Positions 9,697 to 11,396 of a stretch of 32,041 nucleotides of DNA are shown here, in pieces (position 1 is the first letter of the stretch; each line of letters starts with the position of its first letter). The stretch is from positions 1 to 32,041 of the forward strand of contig CACAVG010000005.1 in the NCBI GenBank assembly GCA_902535885.1. The letters run 5' to 3'. The DNA comes from an uncultured Alphaproteobacteria bacterium (GTDB lineage: Bacteria; Pseudomonadota; Alphaproteobacteria; HIMB59; GCA-002718135). The notes beneath the pieces were generated by a model, which saw only the letters and a program-made list of their open reading frames with translations, made no database searches and was not told the DNA's origin. Made by a program: the position numbers and the translations under genes.

Positions 9697-10170
9697 TTAG
9701 CACTCTTCAGTTAATTTATTATAAGCTGCAGTAAATCCATTAAGTGTGTATATGTCATTTGTTATAGTGCCTCTAGAGGACTCGCCACTAACTTTAAGCT
9801 CGAGTCCTTTTTTCATTGCAAAAATAACTTTATTATCTTCTTCTGTCCAAGCGGCGGTAGGCACATCTTCAGTTGTATAAAATTTATATTCTCCATTATC
9901 AATATTTACAATTATATCAGATGGAACTTTATAATTATAACCTGCTTCTATCTGTACTACGGTTTCTGGATTGCCAATGTTTTTATAAACCAAAACGTAG
10001 AAGTTACCTCTCTTCTTATCACTGGGTAAATCTGACTCTGTTGCCAAGCTGCCAATATAACAATACTCATCAGCTTTCTCAAAAGACCATTTACCAACCT
10101 CTAGCGCCATTAAAGTACTAGGAAGTGCTACATATAGCACTATTAAAAACTTAAGAAAAATTTTCATCAA
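9697..10170 (-). CDS. Secreted IalB-like (invasion associated locus B family) protein
   Basis: Signal peptide, conserved Cys, pattern Y.V..D....YT....AW....N..IFAMKKG…SSRGT…D.YTLNGFTAAYNK…C. Confidence 0.55.
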   Translation of the reverse strand: MMKIFLKFLIVLYVALPSTLMALEVGKWSFEKADEYCYIGSLATESDLPSDKKRGNFYVLVYKNIGNPETVVQIEAGYNYKVPSDIIVNIDNGEYKFYTTEDVPTAAWTEEDNKVIFAMKKGLELKVSGESSRGTITNDIYTLNGFTAAYNKLTEEC

Positions 10171-10239
10171 TTCTTTCTTTTAGTATATCTTATGCAATTA
10201 GTTAAGAGTGTTTAATCAATGTTAGGGTCTTTTTAAATT

Positions 10240-10776
10240 ATGGAAAAATTAAACTTAAATGACTTGATGAAACAGATTCAAAAAGACCGCGACGAAATGG
10301 CTTTTTCACAAATTTTTGATTTTTTTGCCCCTAAAGTTAACGCTTATTTTATTCAAAATAGGATCAAGTTTGAAAGCTCTGAAGAGCTTACACAAGAAGT
10401 CTTAAGTACTGTTTGGGTAAAATCAAACCTATATGATTCATCAAAATCAGCACTTTCAACATGGATATTTACTATAGCGAGAAACAAAAAAATAGACTTT
10501 TTAAGGAAAAATTCAAAAATTAACTTTAAAGAAGAAGATATAAGAGAATTTTTATACCAAGATAGAGAAGTTGATCTCATTGAAGAAAGTGAGGCAAAAA
10601 AACAAATAGAAAGAATAAATAATGAGCTCGATGAACAGCAAAAAATAATGATAAAAATGAACTTTTTTGAAAACAAAAGTCATAAAAAAATTGCAGATGA
10701 GCTTGAAATTCCATTAGGGACAGTTAAATCTAGAATAAGACACATTTTAACGAAAATGCAGGAATTTTTAAGATGA
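10240..10776 (+). CDS. RNA polymerase ECF sigma factor (RpoE/ECF11-like)
   Basis: Sigma region 2 (SSEELTQEVLSTVWVKSNLYDSSKSALSTWIFTIARNKKIDFLRK) and region 4 (HKKIADELEIPLGTVKSRIRHILTKM); followed by chrR with ATGA overlap. Confidence 0.93.
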   Translation: MEKLNLNDLMKQIQKDRDEMAFSQIFDFFAPKVNAYFIQNRIKFESSEELTQEVLSTVWVKSNLYDSSKSALSTWIFTIARNKKIDFLRKNSKINFKEEDIREFLYQDREVDLIEESEAKKQIERINNELDEQQKIMIKMNFFENKSHKKIADELEIPLGTVKSRIRHILTKMQEFLR

Positions 10777-11396
10777 ACGGAACAGTTGTAAAAAACCAGC
10801 TAATTTTTGATTTTGCCTCTGGAATATTGGGTCCAGCAAAGTCGCTGTTTACTTCAACATATTTAGAATTAAACTCAGATGCCTCAAAAATTGTTAGTAC
10901 ATTTGAAAATATGTTGGGTGAAAACTTGATGGATAACGAAAACATTCATCCTAAAAATTTGAAGTACAAAGACTGTATAAATAATGAAAATATAAAATCT
11001 GTTCCAAATCTTAAAGATCCAGTAACCAGTTTTTTTGGAAACATAAATAACTTAAATTGGAAACAAGTTTATAAAGGTTTTAAAGAGTATACCGCATCGA
11101 TCGATGATAAAGACGAATTGAAATTAATAAAAATGGACCCTGGAGTTTCTGTTCCGCTGCACTCACATGGTGGAAAAGAGTATATATTAGTCTTAGATGG
11201 TAGTTTCTGCGATGAATATGGTAAGTACTCTAGAGGTGATATTCAAATAAATGACCAAAAAATTAAACATACGCCAATAGCATCTAAAGACACGGGCTGT
11301 ATATGCATGAGTATAACCGAAAAAGATGTAATATTCTTTGGTAAGTATGGATCTTTTTTAAACTTATTTACATTTATTAAATCTTTTTTTAAGTAA
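10773..11396 (+). CDS. ChrR-like anti-sigma factor with C-terminal cupin domain
   Basis: Cupin motif VPLHSHGGKEYILVLDGSFCDEYGKYSRGDIQ…KHTPIASKDTGC; translationally coupled to the ECF sigma gene. Confidence 0.85.
   Translation: MNGTVVKNQLIFDFASGILGPAKSLFTSTYLELNSDASKIVSTFENMLGENLMDNENIHPKNLKYKDCINNENIKSVPNLKDPVTSFFGNINNLNWKQVYKGFKEYTASIDDKDELKLIKMDPGVSVPLHSHGGKEYILVLDGSFCDEYGKYSRGDIQINDQKIKHTPIASKDTGCICMSITEKDVIFFGKYGSFLNLFTFIKSFFK

Follow-up and report, generated by a model that had tools for sequence, protein, structure and literature searches.

Our analysis indicates that the ChrR-type anti-sigma factor encoded in the window (the whole 32,041-nucleotide stretch of DNA that was analysed) has lost the zinc site of its anti-sigma domain and has kept the metal site of its cupin-like domain. 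A zinc-independent anti-sigma fold in this lineage is well supported by the alignments and the predicted structure, since the four zinc ligands are gone clade-wide and the domain has kept its fold and still experiences purifying selection. We favor the reading, to which we assign a probability of roughly 0.6, that in this zinc-free ChrR the sigma factor would be held by the N-terminal helices via packing, and that the metal cupin would sense light-linked oxidative damage. The features on which the argument rests are collected in Table 1.

Table 1. Positions of the sigma/anti-sigma gene pair, its domains and metal-site residues, and associated loci (window coordinates unless a contig handle is given).
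Feature	Position	Strand	Basis
Divergent IalB-like gene	9697-10170	-	Pfam IalB
Conserved 24-base block GTATATCTTAYRCAAWTAGTTAAG upstream of the sigma gene	10183..10206	+	Upstream regions of one subclade; one copy per genome, 4 genomes
ECF sigma factor gene, ECF11-like, 178 aa	10240..10776	+	Pfam Sigma70_r2 and Sigma70_r4_2
ChrR-type anti-sigma factor gene, 207 aa	10773..11396	+	TIGR02451, Cupin_7, 2q1z fold match
N-terminal anti-sigma domain, residues 1-55	10773..10937	+	AlphaFold2 helices, dN/dS
YLELNSDA, residues 30-37; canonical H-x3-C-x2-C site, here Y-x3-N-x2-A	10860..10883	+	Alignment columns
Cys68, where helix IV of ChrR binds sigma region 2	10974..10976	+	Invariant in 77/77; regional alignment
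C-terminal cupin-like domain, residues 89-200	11037..11372	+	Cupin_7, dN/dS, model
Cupin metal ligands H130, H132, E136 (HSHGGKE)	11160..11180	+	Invariant in 77 aligned proteins
Cupin metal ligand H166	11268..11270	+	Alignment; invariant in 77 proteins
Photolyase cluster	L214 8439-13636; matching cluster in L216 and L222		

By sequence, the pair at 10240-11396 combines an ECF11-like sigma factor with a ChrR-type anti-sigma factor. The two genes share 4 bp (ATGA), in which the start codon of the anti-sigma gene overlaps the stop codon of the sigma gene, and they are overlapping or adjacent throughout the family-level group to which the window protein belongs (f1) and its sister family (f2). The nearest solved relative of the sigma protein is Rhodobacter sphaeroides SigE (2q1z_A, E 2.6e-33; the runner-up has 3.2e-11). 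The anti-sigma protein matches nearly the whole TIGR02451 model with 117.5 bits (E 7e-34; cut-off 124.5), a model matched at E <= 1e-10 by all 77 aligned f1 proteins, and Cupin_7 with 51.1 bits (cut-off 27; E 1.3e-13). Among solved structures, only the ChrR chains of 2q1z and 2z2s match it over its full length, and in a profile search the N-terminal domain aligns with ChrR over its entire length. Although the TIGR02451 score lies just below the cut-off, two other marks of the ChrR family are present, namely an ECF11-type sigma neighbour and a ChrR cupin-like domain with HxHx3E...H.

The zinc ligands of R. sphaeroides ChrR are H6, H31, C35 and C38, as numbered in PMC6852236. In the alignment with canonical alphaproteobacterial ChrR proteins these columns are occupied by V, Y, N and A in the window protein, exactly as the original prediction had read the segment (H to Y, both Cys to N and A), and the N-terminal His, also said to be missing, is indeed replaced by V at the H6 column. 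The cupin motif, which had been called intact, is confirmed as such: its four ligands are invariant over the 77 proteins, and the HHEH set is found in all 155 aligned sequences. The HHCC pattern of the zinc-binding anti-sigma (ZAS) type, an N-terminal H plus H-x3-C-x2-C, is consequently not found in the window protein. What is found corresponds to a non-zinc class I anti-sigma domain (ASDI): three confident helices, the ChrR fold and an absent motif, with helix IV predicted at low confidence.

One would argue that ligands could have moved elsewhere in the N-terminal domain, which the original prediction had itself named as an outcome that would overturn it. They were looked for: judged by His/Cys conservation among the 77 f1 relatives, residues 1-55 hold no conserved His or Cys pair, and substitute zinc ligands in this domain were ruled out on that ground. 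The nearest His and Cys are H59, an unconserved position (His in 37/77), and C68, found in 77/77. Invariant Cys68 and the Asp, Glu and Asn residues available in the domain would be the material from which another metal site might be built; given the lack of a conserved pair, we consider it highly improbable that other residues of the domain still bind a metal.

The replacement is a property of the whole clade. Y-x3-N-x2-A occurs in all 77 distinct f1 proteins, down to 57% identity, which excludes chance or sequencing error. In the sister family, whose proteins are about 35% identical, all four ligands are missing in 20/20, with other residues at those columns. Thus 97/97 members of the order lack the HHCC set and keep the cupin HHEH, and canonical homologues in the clade, a second outcome that would have spoken against the original prediction, number 0 among the 77 and 20 proteins. 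In both families the pair is flanked by an IalB-like gene with argG and by a DUF3429 gene with an aldo-keto reductase, and we take the f1 and f2 genes to be orthologous because of this common genomic position; orthology rests on synteny, as the grouping of f1 with f2 in the tree is possibly a long-branch artefact. Since all f1 and f2 proteins are devoid of the ligands, the sequences place the loss of the zinc site either as order-wide and old or as having occurred in both families. Of the six genera of the family, the gene turned up in one; the five others yielded no match among about ten genomes searched, some of them incomplete.

The altered domain is not decaying. The frame is open in every f1 relative with a full-length match, and the dN/dS values (medians over pairs of 84-97% identity) are 0.073 for the anti-sigma domain, 0.183 for the linker and 0.031 for the cupin; a pseudogene was rejected on these two grounds. 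The AlphaFold2 model of the anti-sigma protein (mean pLDDT 87.1) shows a cupin barrel and three confident N-terminal helices, predicted at residues 3-16, 21-33 and 35-50, with pLDDT of 87-98 over residues 1-50; the helix-IV region is poorly predicted (pLDDT 60-67), and helix IV is shorter in f1 than in ChrR. When the model was compared with the PDB, six ChrR chains came out on top (E 7.7e-15 to 1.9e-8, TM-score by target 0.78-0.81) and all non-ChrR cupins ranked below them.

It could be that the anti-sigma role itself was lost, the protein being a metal-cupin protein whose N-terminal helices were reused, and the sigma factor being constitutive or otherwise controlled. The disappearance of all four residues on which zinc-dependent inhibition by ChrR relies, together with the shortened helix IV, would agree with this. 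However, the gene pair stays overlapped or adjacent in f1 and f2, the N-terminal domain experiences strong purifying selection and aligns with ChrR over its full length, and elsewhere anti-sigma domains work without zinc (PMC7406223). Thus we regard a loss of the anti-sigma role as quite unlikely.

Loss of the zinc site is not confined to this order. A class-wide sample gave 55 usable alphaproteobacterial ChrR-type proteins, after two gammaproteobacterial matches and one broken frame were set aside. HHCC is kept in 38 of them and incomplete in 17, among which 13 are without either Cys and 4 retain one. The cupin HHEH is present in 55/55, although sampling was done via the ChrR model, so that proteins with a lost cupin may be under-represented. 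Other proteins without HHCC, such as L191 (AYNQ), L199 (MYNA) and L182 (NYSA), have intact cupin ligands like the window protein, and near-identical Tyr/Asn replacements are seen in L191 and L199, two unrelated proteins. The tree positions of these three are not orthologous to that of the window protein, and the losses look separate. On the maximum-likelihood tree of 88 proteins the zinc-ligand trait changes 12 times, an approximate count in view of the long tips and the many open forks, and at least 6 changes are forced by well-supported branches. A single origin of the zinc-free ChrR proteins was rejected in all 200 bootstrap trees. L154, which is close to the canonical L149, reads YHCS at the HHCC columns, with 2/4 ligands left, and is possibly a recent, intermediate loss by its sequence.

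The loss of the zinc site is real, recurrent and within a known class, and it is less special than the original prediction took it to be. About 10,930 class I anti-sigma domains have been surveyed, of which approximately 44% do not carry Hx3Cx2C (28% among the soluble ones), and the zinc and non-zinc types are intermixed on the tree (PMC7406223). It is a modest departure from a known pattern: one metal site is lost repeatedly while the other is strictly retained, and this clade has in addition its own invariant Cys68. Zinc-free ChrR proteins as such were not found described in a literature search covering few subscription papers, a result of little weight.

The division of labour in R. sphaeroides ChrR suggests how such a protein could still work. 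There, inhibition depends on the zinc ligands of the anti-sigma domain but not on the cupin, which the singlet-oxygen response requires (PMC6852236). Some compensation must therefore be assumed in the zinc-free proteins. In the mechanism we propose, the N-terminal helices would hold the sigma factor in unstressed cells, and packing of side chains, as seen with RseA and RskA, would take the place of zinc in keeping the helix bundle stable. The metal-bound cupin would read light-linked oxidative damage, from singlet oxygen or organic peroxides, whereupon the anti-sigma factor would be destroyed or loosened and the sigma factor freed. E147 and H177 are needed for the singlet-oxygen response of ChrR (PMC6852236), and their equivalents are present in the window protein. 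The exact role of the anti-sigma-domain zinc in this response was called unknown in the same study (PMC6852236), and a peptide modelled on the site shows a fast reaction with singlet oxygen (PMC6432622). Without the zinc, one possible target of direct oxidation would be gone, but the cupin route would stay.

The original prediction had offered two consequences of the loss, a zinc-independent anti-sigma fold or altered singlet-oxygen/peroxide signalling. The first stands, on the lost ligands, the low dN/dS of the domain and the ChrR fold. The second gains no support from these data and is not needed, as the intact cupin is the domain that the response requires in R. sphaeroides (PMC6852236) and near-complete relatives carry a photolyase/DUF1365/CFA-synthase cluster similar to known sigma-E targets. 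A wider claim would be that the light-stress ChrR of the whole order senses via the metal cupin alone (or via Cys68), with the anti-sigma zinc being a dispensable prop and not the singlet-oxygen sensor; we put this forward tentatively, and we doubt it more than we believe it.

Cys68 deserves a consideration of its own, as by the alignment it may serve either in packing or as a newly gained thiol switch. If it were a switch, oxidation of Cys68, alone or with the cupin cysteines Cys146, Cys176 and Cys178, would release the sigma factor. The residue is kept in 77/77 proteins despite a surrounding linker that is only about 52% identical between f1 relatives, and it sits where ChrR helix IV contacts sigma region 2 (PMC6852236). 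However, a single invariant residue may equally be a packing contact, and Cys68 aligns with a hydrophobic Val/Leu position of the canonical helix IV. Cys176 and Cys178 correspond to C187 and C189 of ChrR, two residues on which the singlet-oxygen response does not depend (PMC6852236). Moreover, the sister family is without Cys68 and has an invariant Cys22 of its own (L109 numbering; L109-L128), the sole Cys of the f2 anti-sigma domain, located where H31 used to be or just beside it. Thus thiol sensing is, in our opinion, unlikely, and sensing by the metal cupin remains the reading we prefer.

Near-complete f1 and f2 relatives carry a cluster of photolyase, FAD oxidoreductase-like, DUF1365, cyclopropane-type methyltransferase (CFA synthase) and DUF2878 genes, which in G097 is separated from the sigma gene by about 0.3 Mb; the FAD oxidoreductase-like frame was assigned by look, as the piece searched had no Pfam match. 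Photolyase is a sigma-E target. By analogy with known sigma-E targets, which include furan fatty acid genes (PMC6852236) and which the cluster resembles, the photolyase/FAD oxidoreductase/DUF1365/cyclopropane-synthase cluster is likely among the targets of the sigma factor. The regulon is drawn by analogy only, since the search for a promoter motif common to the sigma gene and the photolyase cluster gave none: no clear common element stood out in the photolyase upstream regions inspected, and the canonical ECF11 promoter motif was not recognised by eye in the upstream regions. The conserved block GTATATCTTAYRCAAWTAGTTAAG occurs once per genome and so yields no target list. The block is probably a promoter, either of the sigma gene or of the IalB-like gene that diverges from it; the sister family has a different conserved block upstream. 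The IalB-like gene adjoins the sigma gene in both families, and this linkage may be functional. Each f1 genome contains one sigma factor above the Sigma70_r4_2 cut-off, so the pair appears to be the only ECF system of f1.

For the organism the pair matters, since no other ECF sigma factor of this type was found in these streamlined genomes of the sunlit ocean. For the protein family, the fact that natural ChrR proteins have lost the zinc many times and never, in our sample, the cupin site argues that, of the two metal sites, the cupin is the one that cannot be spared. Zinc-free natural ChrR proteins are suitable material for probing this point.

RseA and RskA are bound to the membrane, have no cupin domain and are released via regulated proteolysis or other routes. 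With RseA of E. coli and RskA of M. tuberculosis the window protein shares an anti-sigma helical bundle without zinc (PMC7406223, PMC6852236), and both inhibit sigma factors despite the absence of the motif; RsiW has the zinc motif, yet its sigma binding is independent of zinc (PMC7406223). RsrA of S. coelicolor and other ZAS proteins have the same anti-sigma domain fold in the sigma-bound state (PMC4960319). Their redox switch is based on zinc and cysteines, they have no cupin, and their cysteines are missing in the window protein. The R. sphaeroides SigE-ChrR pair (ECF11; 2q1z, 2z2s) differs in that its ChrR binds zinc through H6/H31/C35/C38 where the window protein has V/Y/N/A, a shorter helix IV and the invariant Cys68. 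The two systems have in common the overlapping or adjacent gene pair, the N-terminal anti-sigma domain, the H-x-H-x3-E...H cupin and the CIC motif, and SigE-ChrR is the best match to the window pair both by sequence and by fold.
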